Source: Chryseobacterium daecheongense (GTDB taxonomy: Bacteria > Bacteroidota > Bacteroidia > Flavobacteriales > Weeksellaceae). From it: a stretch of 64,000 bases of DNA. The DNA is taken from the NCBI RefSeq assembly GCF_003729955.1, contig NZ_RJTX01000001.1, positions 682,001-746,000 on the forward strand, in the 5' to 3' direction. The position numbers and the translations under genes are program-made. This document shows, piece by piece, positions 29,738 through 38,408 of the stretch; position 1 is the first letter of the stretch; each line of letters starts with the position of its first letter. The notes under the pieces are model-generated. The model was given only the letters and a program-made list of their open reading frames with translations. It was not told the DNA's origin and did no database searches.

Positions 29738-30706
29738 ATGTCTGAAAGATTAGCAATCGTCATATTAAACTGGAATGGTAAAACCTGGCTGGAAAAATTT
29801 TTGCCCAGTGTGATCCGTTTTTCAGAAAAAGCCAAAGTATATGTCATTGATAACCTTTCCACAGACGATTCAGTGCCTTATTTACAGGCTAACTTTCCGG
29901 ATGTAGGAATTGTTATCAACAATCAAAATTACGGCTTTGCAGGCGGTTATAATGAAGGTTTAAAGAAGATCAATGCTGAGTATTACTGTTTATTGAATTC
30001 CGATGTTGAAGTTACAGAAAACTGGACCAGTCCTGTATTAGGTTTATTTGAAAGAAACTCTGAAATTGCAGCAATACAGCCGAAAATTTTATCTTATCAA
30101 AATAAAAATTTCTTTGAATTTGCAGGAGCCGGAGGCGGCTTGATTGATAATTTAGGATACCCTTATTGCAGAGGACGTATTTTTGATGATCTGGAGGAAG
30201 ATAAAGGACAATATGATGATGAGACGGAAATTTTCTGGGCTTCAGGCTGTTGTTTATTTATCCGTTCTAAAGATTTCTGGGAACAGAATGGTTTTGATGC
30301 GAGATTTTTTGCTCATCAGGAAGAAATTGACCTCTGCTGGAGATTGATCAATACCGGGAAGAAAATATATTATACGGGAAAATCTAAAGTGTATCATGTA
30401 GGCGGCGGTACACTGAATAAACAGAATGCTCAAAAGACTTATTTAAATATCAGGAATAATCTTTCCATGATGTTGAAAAACCTGCCTTTTCCTCAATTGA
30501 TCTGGCTGATATTTTTCAGGCTTTGCTTAGATGGTGTTGCCGGGATTTATTTTGGGGTTAAAAACGGATTTCCTCATCTCTGGGCTGTGGTAAGAGCACA
30601 TTTCAGCTTTTATGGGCAGGCTGTCCAAACCTGGAAGCTTCGCCAGTCATCCCAAAAACATCAATTCTATCAGTCAAAGTGGCTGATTTTCAAACATTTT
30701 CTTTAG
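29738..30706 (+). CDS. Family 2 glycosyltransferase
   Basis: A 322-residue inverting GT2 (GT-A fold). The nucleotide-sugar site is visible as VIDNLSTDDSV near 35, the metal-binding motif as LNSDVEV, and FWASGCCLFIRSKDFWEQNG holds the acceptor-domain segment (with an ED-like pair later in HQEEIDLCWRL). The C-terminus has a hydrophobic segment (about 250-270, LIWLIFFRLCLDGVAGIY) that could associate with the membrane. Rhamnosyl/galactosyl transferases of this type work on LPS or surface glycans; the acceptor is unknown. Confidence 0.9.
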   Translation: MSERLAIVILNWNGKTWLEKFLPSVIRFSEKAKVYVIDNLSTDDSVPYLQANFPDVGIVINNQNYGFAGGYNEGLKKINAEYYCLLNSDVEVTENWTSPVLGLFERNSEIAAIQPKILSYQNKNFFEFAGAGGGLIDNLGYPYCRGRIFDDLEEDKGQYDDETEIFWASGCCLFIRSKDFWEQNGFDARFFAHQEEIDLCWRLINTGKKIYYTGKSKVYHVGGGTLNKQNAQKTYLNIRNNLSMMLKNLPFPQLIWLIFFRLCLDGVAGIYFGVKNGFPHLWAVVRAHFSFYGQAVQTWKLRQSSQKHQFYQSKWLIFKHFL

Positions 30707-30945: not shown

Positions 30946-31776
30946 ATGTATACAATAACAGATCAGTTAAAAGATATGGGATTCAGTATCAACCCATTAG
31001 ATTATATCATAAAGAGAAACAACAATCACAGGCATTTTAATACGTTAGATTATTTCTGTATATTTATTGTATTGCAGGACCTGGATTTACTCGTTGAAAA
31101 CATTTTTCACAGCATAAAAGCAGGTAATATTGTTTTCATCGGTCCTCAGAAAAACATCACATTTGGAGAGAGTAAAGGTCCGGAAATTTACCTTATCGCT
31201 TTTTCCTCCTGTTTTTATGAAAGATCAACCAAAGACAGCCTTTTCCTTAATTCTCAGCTTTTCTTCAATTATTCTTCTGATATATTTGTTGCCCCTTTTC
31301 ACAACAAAGAAGAAATGAAGGTGGTTTTTATGGAAAGAATGAAAAGCTTTCAGGAAAAAGATCAAAGTCTGTATGTAGCTGCTGCTCACAATGCTATTGA
31401 AAGATTAATGCTGGATGCTTTTCTGCATATTCCTCCTGAAGAAATCAAAAAAGATTATAATTTCGAATACCTATATTACGTCAATAAGTTTAAAGTCATT
31501 TTGCAAAGGGATTATAAAAAGGCAAAGAAAGTATCTTATTATGCGAATGAACTTAATATAACTTCCAGGAAACTGACGGAAATGACGGAGTATATTTTCG
31601 GTAAAACTGCTAAGCAGCTTATTATTGAAAAGCTTATCACCGAGTTTGAAAAAGCCATCAATTTTTCCAATCATACCATTTCTGAAATCTCTTATGAGCT
31701 GGGATTCAGCGACGAAGGAAATTTCAGCAATTTTATAAAAAAACATGCTGGAAAATATCCCTCCGAAATGAAATAA
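30946..31776 (+). CDS. AraC-family transcriptional regulator of the fimbrial-like operon
   Basis: A 276-residue protein with a C-terminal AraC helix-turn-helix domain (about 180-276: YYANELNITSRKLTEMTEYIFGKTAKQLI and TISEISYELGFSDEGNFSNFIKKHAGKYPSEM, the second containing the conserved GFSDxxNFSxxFKKxxGxxPSEx pattern). The N-terminal 165 residues form a cupin-like sensing domain (VFIGPQKNITFG). It is 48 bases upstream of the first subunit-like gene in the same direction, so it is the likely activator of the operon, a common arrangement with fimbrial genes in other phyla. The gap to it shares a short motif with the region at 32381-32444. Confidence 0.88.
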   Translation: MYTITDQLKDMGFSINPLDYIIKRNNNHRHFNTLDYFCIFIVLQDLDLLVENIFHSIKAGNIVFIGPQKNITFGESKGPEIYLIAFSSCFYERSTKDSLFLNSQLFFNYSSDIFVAPFHNKEEMKVVFMERMKSFQEKDQSLYVAAAHNAIERLMLDAFLHIPPEEIKKDYNFEYLYYVNKFKVILQRDYKKAKKVSYYANELNITSRKLTEMTEYIFGKTAKQLIIEKLITEFEKAINFSNHTISEISYELGFSDEGNFSNFIKKHAGKYPSEMK

Positions 31777-31824
31777 ATTGTATATTTACCTAAGTAACCG
31801 TTTGGTGAAAAATCTTAGGGAAAT

Positions 31825-32229
31825 ATGCTTACCAGGTTTTTAATCATCACTTTCATGTTTGCTTTTGCTGCTATTTCCGCACAGGCAAATGATCGTTTGC
31901 AATTAAATATCCGCTTGCACCCTATCCAAACTCTTACTATTAGTGATACAGAATCCAATCCTGATAATAAAGAAATTCTGTCTCCTGAATATATTACGGT
32001 ATCCAGCGCATCTGCATTTCAGGTAAAGGTAAAGCGTGAAAGCTACAGCAATAAAAAAGAAGATACCAAAAAACATCATGTCCCTAATGAATATAATCTT
32101 ATCAGTCATTCAAAAGGCGTCATGCATAAAAAATATAATATAGATAAACCTATAGAAAATATCATAAAAGAAACAGAAAATACTACAACTGAGAATAATC
32201 TTTTAGTATTCACTATTATTTCGAAATAA
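31825..32229 (+). CDS. Secreted fimbrial-subunit-like protein, smaller paralogue
   Basis: A 134-residue exported protein with a signal peptide (1-20, ending ISAQ). It aligns with the next gene's product over most of its length: NIRLHPIQTL versus NVRLKPIQTL, SASAFQVKVKRES versus STGGFQVKVKSA, and LLVFTIISK versus ELTYTIVSQ at the end. The middle is shorter and charged (KKEDTKKHH). The pattern of two beta sheets with a terminal strand matches a single pilin-like domain. It may be a minor or anchor subunit, or a decayed copy; the charged middle favours divergence rather than recent duplication. Confidence 0.72.
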   Translation: MLTRFLIITFMFAFAAISAQANDRLQLNIRLHPIQTLTISDTESNPDNKEILSPEYITVSSASAFQVKVKRESYSNKKEDTKKHHVPNEYNLISHSKGVMHKKYNIDKPIENIIKETENTTTENNLLVFTIISK

Positions 32230-32542
32230 ATTTTCTGTTCAATTTGTAAAAAATAACTATGCTAAGAATAACAATATTGAATATTGTTCATTCACAACTT
32301 ATTATCAATTTCTTTTTATGGATAATATTATAGTATTTTTTATATTTTATCATTAAACTTATCATTTTCATATACCACATTTTGTCAATAATTCACAAAA
32401 TGAACCTATTTTTTACGGCCTTAATATTTGACAAAAATTACAAATTATAAGTATTTTTTCACAAAAGAGTATCTATTCTTTATCTCTACTTTTGCACCAT
32501 AAAAATTCAAATATACTTAACAAAAAAAAACATTATTTAACT
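32230..32542 (+). promoter_or_regulatory. Long AT-rich regulatory region ahead of the major subunit gene
   Basis: This 313-base gap has no gene. It holds a 9-bp palindrome, AACAATATTgAATATTGTT (32270-32288), two similar sites, TTTGTCAATAATTCACAAAA (32381-32400) and TTTGACAAAAATTACAAA (32427-32444), and a -7 element TACTTTTG (32487-32494) 48 bases before the ATG. No -33 TTG is evident, as expected for an activator-dependent promoter. Binding by the AraC protein is an inference. Confidence 0.5.
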
Positions 32543-33067
32543 ATGAAAAAATGTATTTTGGCTTCTTTTGCTCTAGTAGGATTCGTAACACTTAAAGCGC
32601 AACAAAACGTAACATTAAACGTAAGATTAAAACCAATCCAGACGCTTGTTGTAAATAACGCACAAAAAGTGGTTAATCTAGACTATGTAACAAAAGATGA
32701 TTATACTAATGGAGTAACTTCAGTAAACGCTGACCATTTAAGCATCTACAGTACAGGTGGATTCCAGGTAAAAGTAAAAAGTGCTAATGCAGCTTTACAA
32801 AACGGAAGTAAAAACATTCAGGCTAATACAATACAAATCAAAGCAACTGCTGGTTCTGATGCTGTAAACGGAGCTCAGTATGCACAAAATGTACAGCTAT
32901 CTGCTAACGAAACAACTTTAGTAACTTCCACTCACGGAGGTGTAGACAAAAAAATCAGCATTGAATATAAAGGTGCAGGAGCAAATGCTTATCTTGACAA
33001 TTATATTGCTGGACAGGATCCGACAGTATATACTACTGAATTAACCTATACTATTGTTTCTCAATAA
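32543..33067 (+). CDS. Secreted fimbrial-subunit-like protein, probable major subunit
   Basis: A 174-residue exported protein. The start at 32543 is chosen because it begins with the signal peptide MKKCILASFALVGFVTLKAQ; an ATG 51 bases upstream adds only a basic leader and precedes the likely RNA start region. The mature protein (from QQNVTLNVRLKPIQTLVV) is beta-rich with low-complexity Ala/Asn/Gln/Thr content, and ends in LTYTIVSQ, a possible donor strand. It aligns with the 134-residue protein and with the C-terminal half of the 339-residue protein. It has its own promoter element and is followed by a hairpin, both consistent with high expression. Confidence 0.78.
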   Translation: MKKCILASFALVGFVTLKAQQNVTLNVRLKPIQTLVVNNAQKVVNLDYVTKDDYTNGVTSVNADHLSIYSTGGFQVKVKSANAALQNGSKNIQANTIQIKATAGSDAVNGAQYAQNVQLSANETTLVTSTHGGVDKKISIEYKGAGANAYLDNYIAGQDPTVYTTELTYTIVSQ

Positions 33068-33093
33068 TATAACTCTAATATAGAAAAACTGAA

Positions 33094-33130
33094 AAGTGTT
33101 GTGATTATATTACAACACTTATCTTTTGTT
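33094..33130 (+). terminator. Hairpin between the major subunit and chaperone genes
   Basis: A perfect 9-bp stem, AAGTGTTGT (33094-33102) with ACAACACTT (33112-33120), followed by a T-rich tail (ATCTTTTGTTTTTT). It can act as a partial terminator or 3'-end stabiliser for the subunit mRNA, as in other fimbrial operons. The next ATG is only 30 bases further on. Confidence 0.75.
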
Positions 33131-33149
33131 TTTTACGATCAATTCTGTT

Positions 33150-33950
33150 ATGAAAAAACTGTTTTTGTCTTTTCTATATATAATCTGTGCCTATTTTTCA
33201 ACCGGATACGCGCAGACCGGAGTTTCCGTTTCTCCGCCAAGAGTGTATTTTGAGTCTGATCCAGGAAATAGTAATACCCAGAAAGTTACCGTTACTAACG
33301 TAAGCACAAAGAACTCTCTGGATTTCGCCGTAAGCCTGGGAGATTGGGAGTATGACCAGAAAGGGGAAAATGTAATGTATCCCGCCAATACCCTCCCAAC
33401 ATCATGCACAAGCTGGGTTACTATAAAAAAGGAGGATAATTATTTTACATTAGCCCCTGGTGAAAGAAGGGATATTGATATTACCATTACTGTTCCGAAT
33501 AAGCTAACAGATAAATCACCGGTATCTACTGCTGTTTTATATGTAAGTCAGATGAATCCTGTAGATGATGTAGACAGCAAAGGAGCCCATATAAAAGTAA
33601 GTATCCGTTCCGGGATAAAGCTTTTCCATAAATTGCCTTCCGCTAAAAACAAAAAGCTTGAGATTGAAAACCTGGTTTATAATCAGCCTAAAAATACGCT
33701 TGATCTGTTTTTTGAAAATCAGGGAGATGTATGGACAGACGGGAAAGTATACACAGACCTTGTTAATACACAGAACGGGAAAAAGACAACGCTAGAATCT
33801 GTTGTTTTTTATACAATGCCGGGAAATAAAAGAGAAATGAATATTTCTCTTCCTACCACACTTGAAAAAGGAAAATACACAGCTTCGATCATGCTTGATT
33901 ACGGAGATAACAACTTGGAAATGGGAGAATTAAATTTCACCTATGAGTAA
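33150..33950 (+). CDS. PapD-like periplasmic fimbrial chaperone
   Basis: A 266-residue exported protein (start 33150: MKKLFLSFLYIICAYFSTGYAQ is a signal peptide; an upstream ATG at 33126 would only lengthen it). The mature part has two Ig-like domains. Domain 1 opens VSVSPPRVYFE, with an Arg at the place of the subunit-anchoring arginine of PapD, then TQKVTVTNVS and SPVSTAVLYVSQM. The boundary strand SIRSGIKLFHK resembles the IKLFYRP signature of PapD-type chaperones. Domain 2 ends LDYGDNNLEMGELNFTYE. It stands between a subunit gene and the tip/usher genes, as in chaperone-usher operons. Family assignment is by motif and context, not search. Confidence 0.75.
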   Translation: MKKLFLSFLYIICAYFSTGYAQTGVSVSPPRVYFESDPGNSNTQKVTVTNVSTKNSLDFAVSLGDWEYDQKGENVMYPANTLPTSCTSWVTIKKEDNYFTLAPGERRDIDITITVPNKLTDKSPVSTAVLYVSQMNPVDDVDSKGAHIKVSIRSGIKLFHKLPSAKNKKLEIENLVYNQPKNTLDLFFENQGDVWTDGKVYTDLVNTQNGKKTTLESVVFYTMPGNKREMNISLPTTLEKGKYTASIMLDYGDNNLEMGELNFTYE

Positions 33951-34962
33951 GAAATTTGTCTTTATTTTACTGCTTCTTTCCGTTAATTGTTTCTCACAGG
34001 TGTATTACAGCTCATGGATCAACAGCTATTTACAGATCAATTCTTATAACGGAAACACTAATCCTGATGCATATACGCTTACTTTTGCGGGTAACGGAAA
34101 TATTAATGTTCCCTATTGGAGGCTGTCTGTAAAATTAAAACAGCCTATTACCTCCATTTTCGGAAATTATGTTATTCCGGCCAATAAAATTTCATTCCAG
34201 CCGGTTTCAACATCAGGTCAGGCTTATCCTAATCCTATCCCTTCCATTCCACAGATCGGAATGCCATTGAATGTTTTTTTACAGGAAGGTTCAGAAGTTT
34301 TCTTAGTACCACAATCCAATGCAGCATTGTACAACCATCCCGCAAGCCTACTCGGCTATTATAATTTTCAGCTGAAATACAGCATGAGTGTTGCAGGAGG
34401 AGCCTATTTGGGCAATTATCCTGCATGGACAGTCTTTACTGCTCCCCTACAGTTTACCGCATATGATCAGTATAACAATATTATTGGTAAAGCTGACCAT
34501 TATTTTCAGTTTCAGATCGGTACGCTTTCAGGAACACCGCCACCGGAAATGTCTTTGAAATTGAGTGCTAATGCCGTAAATGGAGCATTGGAATTTAAAA
34601 GTATGGGAGATTATGTCAACGGGGTAAGTGTAACGTATTCCAATGCATTGATTGTAAGCAGCAATACAAATTATCAGATTAAAATGAAATCTCTGCAGGG
34701 TCAATTTACCTCTGCCGCCGGGAATACGATTCCTCTGAATGCCGTCAAGCTGACTTTAAGCCCCACTTCGCAAAATAATGGAAATGTGTATCCGGTCTCA
34801 TTAAGTGCTTCGCCGCAGCTTATTGCTACCGGAAGCTCCACTCAGGGATCGAGTGTGTACTATGACATCAAATATTTTACGGGATCTAATGATGAAAGGC
34901 TTATTGATGCAAAATCCGAAGACTATTCTACTACTATTCAATACGAGATAACTCCCCAATAA
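33943..34962 (+). CDS. Two-domain secreted protein, probable fimbrial tip subunit
   Basis: A 339-residue exported protein (signal peptide 1-18, ending CFSQ). The N-terminal domain (about 20-200), with GNINVPYWRLSVKLKQP and SLLGYYNFQLKYSMSV, matches nothing I recognise. The C-terminal domain (about 205-339) aligns with the major subunit: DYVNGVSVTYSNALIVSSN versus DYTNGVTSVNADHLSIYS, NYQIKMKSLQGQF versus FQVKVKSANAAL, and TIQYEITPQ at the end. An unrelated N-terminal domain on a pilin domain is the layout of tip adhesins such as FimH and CooD. Its start overlaps the chaperone's end by 8 bases, so translation is coupled. Confidence 0.72.
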   Translation: MSKKFVFILLLLSVNCFSQVYYSSWINSYLQINSYNGNTNPDAYTLTFAGNGNINVPYWRLSVKLKQPITSIFGNYVIPANKISFQPVSTSGQAYPNPIPSIPQIGMPLNVFLQEGSEVFLVPQSNAALYNHPASLLGYYNFQLKYSMSVAGGAYLGNYPAWTVFTAPLQFTAYDQYNNIIGKADHYFQFQIGTLSGTPPPEMSLKLSANAVNGALEFKSMGDYVNGVSVTYSNALIVSSNTNYQIKMKSLQGQFTSAAGNTIPLNAVKLTLSPTSQNNGNVYPVSLSASPQLIATGSSTQGSSVYYDIKYFTGSNDERLIDAKSEDYSTTIQYEITPQ

Positions 34963-34969
34963 ATCTATA

Positions 34970-37771
34970 ATGCTACAAGATCTGCTCAAAAAAATAATTC
35001 TTGTTTTTTTGATTCCGTTATCAGCTATTCTGATTTCGGCGCAGGATCATTCCGGGATCAGCATGGAGGTCCGCAATGAATCCAAAGCAGATAAAAGCAA
35101 TATTGTAGATCTTATTGTAGTAGTAAAAAATGAAAATCCCAACACTTCTTTCAAAGGAAATATTACCATTGATGTTCCTACAGGTTTCAGAAGTATTTTG
35201 AACAATAGAATTGAAGTGGATCTGAAAGCCGGTGAAAATATCTTTTTACCCGTAAAAATACTGATCAATAATGATGCTCCTTATGGAGAGGCCAATCTTA
35301 AAATCAGCCTTACAGACCTTCAAAACCGTTCTGTTGCGCAAAAAGTATTGGTACACAATGTGGCAGAGAATAATATGTTGAGAATAGCCCCGGAAAATTC
35401 ACTGATTCACATCAATAACTCCAATGATTCCATTGAAGTACGGGCAAGGGTATCTAATATGGGCAATAAAAAACAAAATGTTACTGTAGTTTTTAAAATT
35501 CCTGAAGCCACCCAGGAAAACTTCTTTGTAGAGAAAAAAGGAAGTATCGGAGTGCACAGGGATTCGGTATTTGTTTTTCGTTTTATGCCATCAAACAAGA
35601 TCATTAAGAGTTCTCAGTTTGCCGTCAATATTGTAGGTTTCAGAGATCCTGACAAAGAAATATTCGGAAATGCTTCGGTTTCGGTACAGAACGTTTCGTC
35701 AGTGCAGCACTATCAGGATTTGCAGATCAACCCTTTTTCAAACTACACAAAAAACAGTATTACAGCCAGCTATAGAAGTATAGGCAGAGATATTGACATG
35801 TATCAGATTACTGGTTCTGGCGGATTCAATCTTCCTGCCGGATATGTTTTTATAAGGGGAAATATTTATACTGTCAATAATCAAAGGGATCCTATCGTTA
35901 ATAACACCTATGTTTCCTATCGCCGGGAAAACAATGAATTTACTGTAGGAAATATCAGTAAGCTACTGGAATTATCTTTATTCGGAAGAGGTGCAGAATA
36001 TGCATTTACATCATCTGATAGAGATAAAAAGCTGGAGGTGGGATTTGTTGACCAAAGTTTTAGCCTTATTGAAAGAAATTCATTTTTGAAAAACGGTTAT
36101 GGCTTTTATGCAAGAGGAATAATAGGTGCTCAAAACGCTTCTAAAAATATGGCCGGAACCTATATTTTCAGGGATGATCCTTATGACAAGGCAAAGCATC
36201 ATGTATTCGGAACAGATTTGACGCACACTTTTAATGAAAACTGGAAATTAAATACTAAACTATACGGCGGACTCAGCTTTTATGAGAGCATCAATAAAGT
36301 AAAGCCTTCATTGGCTATAGAATCTCAATATTCAGGCCTTATTGATAAGACTAACCTTAACGGAAATTATTTTTACAGCACAGATTATTATCCGGGAAAC
36401 CGAAGAGGGATACTTCAGATCCAACAGAATTTCTCAAGGAATATTTTTAGAGATTATTATCTGTATGCCAATATAACGGTGTCTAATTTTTCACCTAAAT
36501 TCTATTTTTATAATACCGATTTAAAATCCAACAGTACCCGACTGGATTTCGGACTGAACTTTCCTAAAAAAGGTAATTTGAGTTTCGGGATGGGCTATCA
36601 GTATCAGGAAGAGCGTTCCAATACTTATAATACTTTTTTTAATATTGCCGGAACCCAGGAATCAAAACAGCTAAAAGCTCAGCGATTAACAGAATATACG
36701 GCCTGGATAAGCCCTGACAGAAAGCACTCTTCCATGCTGAGTATCGAAGCAGGATTTGTTCGTTACCCGGATTTTAGCAGTCCGGAATATCAAATGAAGA
36801 TAAGCGGTAATTATAATTATAAGTGGTTCAATCTAAGCTATATTTATCAGTATGGCAGTTATTTTCTTTCGGAATACGCTTTTTCCAAAATGCTTAATGA
36901 GAACTCACCATACAAGAAATTATCTGTGTCAGCTTTCTTTAATAAAGGCTTTTTTAAAGAAAAGATCAATCTCACCTCCGGTTTAGCTTATACGGACGAC
37001 GCTTTATATGGAAGATCACCTTCAGGATTTGTCAACCTTAAATACACAAAGGAACGATATGGCATTTTCCTGAACTCTTCATGGTATCATTATTCTTTAA
37101 ATAATTTAAAAAACAATCTTTTTACCATTGAAGCCGGTTTCACTTTCAACCTTCAGCCCAAAACACTGGATCCGGGAAAAAAATCAAATATAAAAGCATT
37201 TGCTTATTATGACAGGAACAATAACAATGTATATGATGAAGGCGATCAGGCAGCCGAGGATTATTTGGTAATGATCAATAACATCTCTTTTAAAACCGAT
37301 CATGAAGGAAATATCATCTACACAAGAATTCCTTACGGAAAATATACTTTAAAACAAGTTATCCAGCAGGGATGGTATTATGATGATATGGAGTTTGAAG
37401 TAAGCAGTCATCAGCATTATTTGGAAATTCCTCTTCATCAAAACGGAACTGTACATGGAAAAGTGACCTATGAATTCAATGCAAAAACAGCTTTAGATTT
37501 TGAGCCTAAAATTGAAGGAATTGTTTTTAATATTTATCAGCAGGATAAGCTTATACAACATTTGTTTACAGATGATAATGGTGAATTTATTTCTTTTTTG
37601 CCTTCCGGAAGCTACAGAATCAGCATTAATGCCAATTCACTGCCTTTAAATACCTTTTGTGAACAAGCGTATACAGATGTGGACATTCAGGCAGGAAAGA
37701 TAACACAAGCCCAGCCTTTTATTATTAAAGTAAAAGAAAAAAATATCCGAGTTAAAAAATTTGGGAATTGA
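34970..37771 (+). CDS. Usher-like outer-membrane barrel protein with C-terminal Ig-like domains
   Basis: A 933-residue exported protein (signal peptide about 1-25). Residues about 28-245 form Ig-like beta sandwiches (DLIVVVKNENPNTSF, EVRARVSNMGNKKQNVTVVF). About 250-720 is a repeated Tyr/Asn-rich amphipathic beta pattern typical of a large outer-membrane barrel (ITASYRSIGRDIDMYQITGS, FEAGFTFNLQPKTLD region at the end). About 728-800 is an SdrD-B-like domain (YYDRNNNNVYDEGDQAAE) and about 815-933 a carboxypeptidase-regulatory-like Ig domain. A periplasmic N-domain, barrel and two C-terminal Ig domains match the plan of fimbrial ushers, although sequence similarity to FimD/PapC is not apparent. 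It follows the tip gene by 7 bases. Confidence 0.7.
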   Translation: MLQDLLKKIILVFLIPLSAILISAQDHSGISMEVRNESKADKSNIVDLIVVVKNENPNTSFKGNITIDVPTGFRSILNNRIEVDLKAGENIFLPVKILINNDAPYGEANLKISLTDLQNRSVAQKVLVHNVAENNMLRIAPENSLIHINNSNDSIEVRARVSNMGNKKQNVTVVFKIPEATQENFFVEKKGSIGVHRDSVFVFRFMPSNKIIKSSQFAVNIVGFRDPDKEIFGNASVSVQNVSSVQHYQDLQINPFSNYTKNSITASYRSIGRDIDMYQITGSGGFNLPAGYVFIRGNIYTVNNQRDPIVNNTYVSYRRENNEFTVGNISKLLELSLFGRGAEYAFTSSDRDKKLEVGFVDQSFSLIERNSFLKNGYGFYARGIIGAQNASKNMAGTYIFRDDPYDKAKHHVFGTDLTHTFNENWKLNTKLYGGLSFYESINKVKPSLAIESQYSGLIDKTNLNGNYFYSTDYYPGNRRGILQIQQNFSRNIFRDYYLYANITVSNFSPKFYFYNTDLKSNSTRLDFGLNFPKKGNLSFGMGYQYQEERSNTYNTFFNIAGTQESKQLKAQRLTEYTAWISPDRKHSSMLSIEAGFVRYPDFSSPEYQMKISGNYNYKWFNLSYIYQYGSYFLSEYAFSKMLNENSPYKKLSVSAFFNKGFFKEKINLTSGLAYTDDALYGRSPSGFVNLKYTKERYGIFLNSSWYHYSLNNLKNNLFTIEAGFTFNLQPKTLDPGKKSNIKAFAYYDRNNNNVYDEGDQAAEDYLVMINNISFKTDHEGNIIYTRIPYGKYTLKQVIQQGWYYDDMEFEVSSHQHYLEIPLHQNGTVHGKVTYEFNAKTALDFEPKIEGIVFNIYQQDKLIQHLFTDDNGEFISFLPSGSYRISINANSLPLNTFCEQAYTDVDIQAGKITQAQPFIIKVKEKNIRVKKFGN

Positions 37772-37853: not shown

Positions 37854-38408
37854 ATGGATTTCTGTGCAATAGATTTTGAAACCGCCACTCATGAGAGAAG
37901 TTCTGCTTGTGAATTGGGTATATGCATTGTACAGGATTCAAAGATCATAGAAACCAAAACATGGCTGATCAAGCCGCCAAGCTTTCCGTATTTTAACCCT
38001 TATAATGTAGATATCCATGGGATCACTCCGGATGATGTAAGAGACTCTCCTACTTTTGATGAAATCTGGTATGAAGTGGAAGAAATGATGTACGGAACGT
38101 TAATGATTGCCCACAATGCGAGTTTTGATGCTGGAGTTCTGAGAGGATGCCTTAATCATTACGGAATGTTCACCCCGAAGCTCAATTACCTTTGCAGCAT
38201 TCAGCTTGCCAAGAAATCATGGAATTATCTTCCGCGCTACGGTTTAAAGCATCTGGCTGAATATCATCAGATAGAATTCAAGCATCACAGAGCCGGAGAT
38301 GACGCCGAAGCATGTGCTAAAATTTCCTTACTGGCTTTTGAAAAGCTCTTACTTCTAAGCAATGAGGAAATACATGATCATATGAAGCTTAAGATTAAAA
38401 AGCTGTAA
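37854..38408 (+). CDS. DEDDh 3'-5' exonuclease (DnaQ/DNA Pol III epsilon-like)
   Basis: A 184-residue protein with the three exonuclease motifs: AIDFETA (D7, E9), HNASFD in the middle, and HHRAGDDAEA near the end, supplying the histidine and fourth aspartate of a DEDDh site. It lacks the polymerase-binding C-terminus of true epsilon subunits, so it is a free-standing exonuclease of RNase T/DnaQ type. Polarity and substrate are inferred from the family. Short promoter region upstream. Confidence 0.9.
   Translation: MDFCAIDFETATHERSSACELGICIVQDSKIIETKTWLIKPPSFPYFNPYNVDIHGITPDDVRDSPTFDEIWYEVEEMMYGTLMIAHNASFDAGVLRGCLNHYGMFTPKLNYLCSIQLAKKSWNYLPRYGLKHLAEYHQIEFKHHRAGDDAEACAKISLLAFEKLLLLSNEEIHDHMKLKIKKL

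Follow-up and report, generated by a model that had tools for sequence, protein, structure and literature searches.

The window analysed here, a 64,000-nucleotide stretch of the Chryseobacterium daecheongense genome (G000, 3.83 Mb), lies on contig 2 and carries a six-gene operon (30946..37771) that most probably encodes a system working like chaperone-usher fibre assembly, a mode known chiefly from Proteobacteria. The six open frames, all on the + strand, encode an AraC-type regulator, two small subunits (SubA and SubB), a periplasmic chaperone (Chap), a two-domain protein (Tip) and an usher-like outer-membrane protein (Ush). An initial annotation of the window had proposed the same six genes at the same positions, with an 8-base overlap of the Chap and Tip genes and a 7-base gap between the Tip and Ush genes, and all of these were confirmed.

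Chap (33150..33950, + strand, 266 aa from its ATG) is a PapD-like periplasmic protein with two Ig domains. Predicted structure and sequence alignment agree on this, as the initial annotation had supposed, and alignment with the chaperones of E. coli K-12 established homology to FimC. Arg31 (codon 33240..33242, +; alignment column R32) is aligned with the Arg of FimC ATRVIY and was retained in 81/81 type A and 7/7 type B chaperones, type A being the window type and the names A to D having been coined in this analysis. Lys157 (codon 33618..33620, +; alignment column K158) is aligned with the Lys of FimC SRIKLYYRP; it is Lys in 81/81 type A chaperones and His in all seven of type B. We take the conserved Arg and Lys to be the counterparts of PapD R8 and K112, the anchors of the subunit C-terminus. 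The family alignments contain only those type A proteins that reach at least 85% of the length of their counterpart in the window (about 77% for SubB). The nearest fold to the Chap model was WxLIP. Among Pfam families, the window chaperone matched WxLIP_PGBD (PF06030) at an E-value of 0.017 only, and WxLIP_HBD (PF11797) was not among its matches. PHROGs returned nothing for Chap or Ush, and the profiles of both gave chance-level matches only against the sequences of solved structures.

The subunits SubB, SubA and Tip carry signal peptides as judged by eye. Tip (33943..34962, +, 339 aa) consists of an N-terminal domain (residues ~20-200) and a C-terminal pilin domain (~201-339); the latter was recognised by alignment of SubB with the last 139 columns of the Tip family (207-345; hhalign E 2.7e-17), in agreement with the earlier description of a two-domain protein ending in a subunit domain. 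SubB (32543..33067, +, 174 aa from its ATG) appears from its family alignment to be the major pilin-like subunit. Its alignment with Tip begins at SubB column 36, past the segment NVTLNVRLKP (codons 22-31, 32606..32635, +), and the part of SubB preceding the shared pilin stretch comprises the signal peptide and this segment, in which hydrophobic and polar residues alternate. Across 87 aligned SubB sequences (the window and the loci described below, paralogues included), positions 23, 25, 27 and 29 were always occupied by V, A or I, by L, V or I, by V, I or L, and by L or F, respectively, the positions in between being mostly T, N, R/K and K. Position 31 was Pro in 81 of the 87, and Tyr169, close to the C-terminus, was invariant. 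Segment 22-31 thus displays a donor-strand pattern and is a candidate N-terminal donor strand, one that would be donated during assembly. The type A Tip pilin domain has no such segment; in FimH-like two-domain adhesins the pilin domain is likewise without a donor strand. The SubB/Tip contrast is clearest in type A, since the pilin domain of the type B tip does have an alternating stretch in front of it. Furthermore, mean identity was 63% for the N-terminal domain of Tip and 59% for its pilin domain (n=80); the N-terminal domain thus varies no more than the pilin domain, which counts against a fast-evolving adhesin.

SubA (31825..32229, +, 134 aa), a short pilin-like protein, is homologous to SubB (hhalign against the SubB family, E 6.5e-28), as had been claimed for the two small subunits. 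It retains the N-terminal strand motif and the strand at the C-terminus, with much of the middle missing, and may be a minor subunit or one that terminates or anchors the fibre. Pfam and NCBIfam scans yielded no family for SubA, SubB, Tip or the barrel core of Ush, SubB having no Pfam family above cut-off, and none of the K-12 pilins matched the operon's subunits. Against solved structures, the Tip profile gave chance-level matches only and single pilin sequences gave nothing useful. The SubB profile found the filament chains TLP-2 (E 0.15) and TLP-1 (E 0.42) in the PDB over ~65 N-terminal residues, a similarity that is suggestive, not significant; no explanation of the name TLP was among the papers listed.

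Ush (34970..37771, +, 933 aa) was predicted to form a barrel of usher size. In the model two N-terminal Ig-like domains (residues 30-241) are followed by 26 long strands arranged as a barrel (263-727) and by C-terminal prealbumin-like domains (738-921). The initial annotation had placed Ig domains at the C-terminus, which did not hold: the Ig-like pair is N-terminal, and the C-terminal domains matched SpaA (PF17802) above the Pfam cut-off and SdrD_B and CarboxypepD_reg below it. FimD and PapC led the Foldseek list obtained with the barrel, and the VIA comparison placed FimD first, tied with a porin. The usher family PF00577 had no match in the 933-aa protein; across 395 sampled genomes of the phylum, its cut-off was passed in none and sub-threshold matches occurred in four.

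When the chaperone profile was run against one genome per species, 97 places with a relative were found and the best 80 retained as loci. The order SubB-Chap-Tip-Ush is kept on a single strand in 76 of these 80, indicating that the gene set is not a product of chance, and the co-occurrence in other genomes on which the initial annotation had staked its reading was thereby borne out. Three exceptions reach a contig end (L009, L013 and L018); in the fourth (L074) no SubB was matched and the barrel gene is split. The 8-base Chap/Tip overlap was present in 66 of the 80 loci, a related regulator immediately 5' of SubA or SubB in 49, and SubA in 40, all of the last titled Chryseobacterium or Weeksellaceae. 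Taxa represented among the loci included Chryseobacterium, Flavobacterium, Myroides, Mesonia, Arenibacter, Niabella, Leadbetterella, Dysgonomonas, Proteiniphilum and Parabacteroides. Of the named sequences, the one nearest to the chaperone was that of Chryseobacterium defluvii (90% identical), a species whose strain DSM 14219 carries the operon.

Barrel matches, of the window type or a near paralogue, were found in 53 of 98 sampled Chryseobacterium genomes; by row count, 45 of the 53 hold the window type (three in fragments) and eight a divergent paralogue or partial match only. Beyond the genus the distribution of the window-type system is patchy. Phylum-wide, the chaperone profile matched 15 of 395 genomes, two of which (G162 and G267) were discounted as weak, partial matches inside long frames. 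Within the class, as drawn by the genome collection, the barrel profile matched 27 of 119 genomes, with matches throughout or at both ends in eight only (G000, G009, G099, G512, G535, G548, G566 and G575); in the remainder the match was confined to the domain at one end, and the frames are 787-1587 codons long, one having an internal stop. Barrel genes were broken or split in L074 and at G093:C1:192184-194945 and G059:C36:151160-153354, suggesting that these systems may decay in some lineages.

Three further cluster types were recognised. Type B has full-length divergent barrels, 22-24% identical, in at least 19 of 98 genus members; the count is a minimum, because G002 and G009 have a type B chaperone without such a barrel match. 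In the seven type B clusters read (L098-L101, L126, L130 and L131), one to five SubB-like genes are followed by a chaperone, a barrel of 933-936 aa and then a tip of 477-478 aa (the frame listed for L100 is longer). One type B chaperone was narrowly above the WxLIP_PGBD cut-off (27.9 vs 27.3 bits). Five tandem pilin genes stand in one of these clusters (L098:2918-6760); two or more of the five are near-identical, and the array may act as a recombination reservoir.

Type D occurs in the window's own genome (G000:C5:163860-168657; L145:5860-10657) as pilin, chaperone, 912-aa barrel and pilin. Its barrel was found in 55 of 60 genus members (in one only in pieces with stops, in one partially), and the second pilin in 10 of the 11 type D clusters read. 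Compared with the window type, the type D profiles matched at 3.4e-21 for the chaperone (255 columns), 2.7e-21 for the barrel (785 columns), and 6e-9 and 1.4e-5 for the pilins. WxLIP_HBD (PF11797) was above cut-off in 10 of 11 type D chaperones, WxLIP_PGBD was matched in all 11 and above cut-off in two, and the one member searched found EfmWxLIP1 directly (E 0.0029). Against the K-12 chaperones, type D chaperones reached E 0.019 with no direct match, so that the sequence link between WxLIP and PapD runs via types A and B. Weak type D barrel matches in G025, G002 and others (residues ~703-792) were rejected as relatives, being confined to a common domain. Proteins of 936-946 aa at L165:3835-6645 and L166:6329-9169, the two read, share a stretch near their own start, with no chaperone or pilin neighbour seen.

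Type C comprises the Balneolaceae clusters L127 and L136-L139, which were reached through the sub-threshold PF00577 matches and contain small secreted proteins, a relative of the window chaperone (2.7e-11) and an usher. The type C ushers (994-1505 aa) gave an alignment with those of K-12 at 3.6e-5 that spans profile columns 160-401 and takes in the stretch of the FimD plug; an equivalent stretch is absent from type A and B barrels. Among their relatives, one has a precomputed PF00577 match and one bears the JGI name 'outer membrane usher protein FimD/PapC'. Of the three type C ushers scanned, two have SPOR domains at their end; a weak TPR match was seen in one. A gene resembling, by eye, part of pyruvate dehydrogenase stands near three of the five type C clusters.

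In the proposed chaperone-usher-like mechanism, SubB, SubA and Tip would enter the periplasm by their signal peptides, where the two-domain chaperone would complete each unfinished subunit fold with a strand of its own and keep the subunit in solution. The chaperone-Tip complex would arrive at the barrel first and SubB next. At the barrel, the N-terminal strand of the next SubB (VTLNVRLKP) would displace the chaperone strand by donor-strand exchange, and the fibre would grow out through the pore with Tip at its far end, where it may serve in adhesion, and SubB as its shaft. The structure of Ush weighs against this reading in one respect. A 933-residue barrel with a central plug had been anticipated, and of this the usher-sized barrel was modelled and the plug was not: the Ush model has no plug domain, its longest inter-strand barrel loop being ~20 residues, and among the 90 ushers aligned, from types A and B and divergent ones, none has an insert of more than 27 residues within the barrel. 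With no plug domain seen, the pore gate must differ from that of FimD. In the strict sense, the chaperone belongs to the chaperone-usher group and the barrel, which has neither PF00577 nor a plug, falls outside the usher family.

A display system of the WxL kind, in which chaperone and subunits form a fixed complex holding the two-domain protein on the surface without polymerisation and the barrel merely secretes the parts, is unlikely. No WxL family was matched at E <=1 in 22 SubB-type, 24 Tip and 10 further pilin-like sequences, the Chap model terminates in a strand (residues 257-266) and lacks the C-terminal membrane helix of WxLIP, and both the conserved free segment of SubB, missing from the Tip pilin domain, and the tandem pilins of type B suit a polymer. 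It is considerably more doubtful that the barrel is another kind of exporter (LptD-like or for polysaccharide) in an incidental neighbourhood, given that it is linked to chaperone, tip and pilins in 76 of the 80 loci, that chaperone, barrel and pilin are also linked in types B, C and D, and that ushers head its Foldseek list. We regard as most improbable a type V (Mfa/FimA) pilus or a surface set dependent on the type IX secretion system (T9SS) with an unusual outer-membrane protein. Such pili are those known in Bacteroidota, but the Pfam matches of the operon proteins and scanned subunits include no FimA/Mfa pilin or anchor family, and the operon's proteins have no lipobox by eye and no T9SS sorting domain among their NCBIfam matches, the last two points as initially annotated. 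We also know of no type V system with a PapD-like chaperone or usher-like barrel.

The first gene (30946..31776, +, 276 aa) encodes the probable regulator of the operon; HTH_18 (PF12833) scored 47.4 bits against a cut-off of 33.6, which upholds the AraC assignment. A TAnnTTTG box (TACTTTTG, 32487..32494, +), a candidate -7 element, lies 56 nt 5' of the SubB ATG; we take this motif to be the -7 element of the Bacteroidota housekeeping promoter. In the SubB/Chap intergenic region, an inverted repeat forms a hairpin followed by a T-run (33079..33135, +; RNA fold -16.7 kcal/mol, z -3.9), a candidate leaky terminator. Among 78 loci and the window, two of which have less than 20 nt of upstream sequence, the box was found within 120 nt 5' of SubB in 65/79 (6% in mononucleotide shuffles) and a strict hairpin (perfect stem of seven or more with a T tail) after SubB in 19/79, counts that are not independent since most loci are from one genus. 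Box and leaky terminator would be in keeping with the main pilin being expressed strongly, separately and in excess. An invertible promoter was considered, and an inverted-repeat search in the window gave no convincing candidate. The operon is flanked by a glycosyltransferase-like gene (29738-30706) and an exonuclease-like gene (37854-38408), both named by eye.

More tentatively, and with somewhat less than even confidence, we propose that Bacteroidota types A, B and D form a broad, unnamed branch of strand-donating fibre systems, their plug-less barrels a second kind of usher and their chaperones the missing link between PapD and WxLIP. Chaperone-usher pili and WxL clusters would then go back to a single ancestral set of chaperone and subunit, and an outer-membrane pore would have been gained or lost along the way. 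For Bacteroidota, which are among the major inhabitants of gut, soil and water, a system of the chaperone-usher kind would be a second route to surface fibres, and a plug-less usher would offer a natural test of the purpose of the plug.

The initial annotation had called the system separate and undescribed. This was half borne out. In the source databases, 'fimbrial biogenesis chaperone' and 'P pilus assembly chaperone PapD' are already in use as titles of the chaperone. The barrel has no functional name there, and in a search of the open PMC library (without subscription papers or preprints) no description of a chaperone-usher system in Bacteroidota and no paper joining WxLIP with PapD was among the matches listed. 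One survey excludes chaperone-usher systems (PMC4793230). A hairpin strand of WxLIP inserting into WxL has been predicted, and the main text of that paper is without the words 'PapD', 'chaperone' or 'usher' (PMC10599100).

Compared with known systems, the window system and type V pili, the best-studied pili of Bacteroidota, had no family in common that we found; type V pili of Bacteroidia are surface fibres built from lipoprotein precursors by protease-triggered assembly. Both the alpha/CS1 class (CFA/I: CfaA-B-C-E) and the E. coli type 1 FimC/FimD system belong to another phylum. The likeness to the latter lies in the homologous chaperone and in a predicted barrel for which Foldseek placed FimD nearest. 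From both, the window system differs in its barrel without plug or PF00577, in the two N-terminal Ig-like and the C-terminal prealbumin-like end domains, and in pilins not recognisable by sequence; its barrel is predicted to have 26 strands, against 24 in FimD. Balneolaceae type C shares a homologous chaperone, a related C-terminal barrel module and adjoining small secreted proteins, whereas its ushers align with those of K-12 across the plug stretch and often carry SPOR domains. The Gram-positive WxL-WxLIP clusters differ in that WxLIP bears a C-terminal membrane helix, their system has no outer-membrane barrel, and no WxL domain was found in the Bacteroidota subunits scanned. They resemble the window system in the fold of Chap, in the WxLIP Pfam families matched by type D chaperones, and in pairing a small and a large protein with a common C-terminal domain, and linking WxLIP to PapD through a chain of sequences would connect two adhesion systems across the Gram divide.

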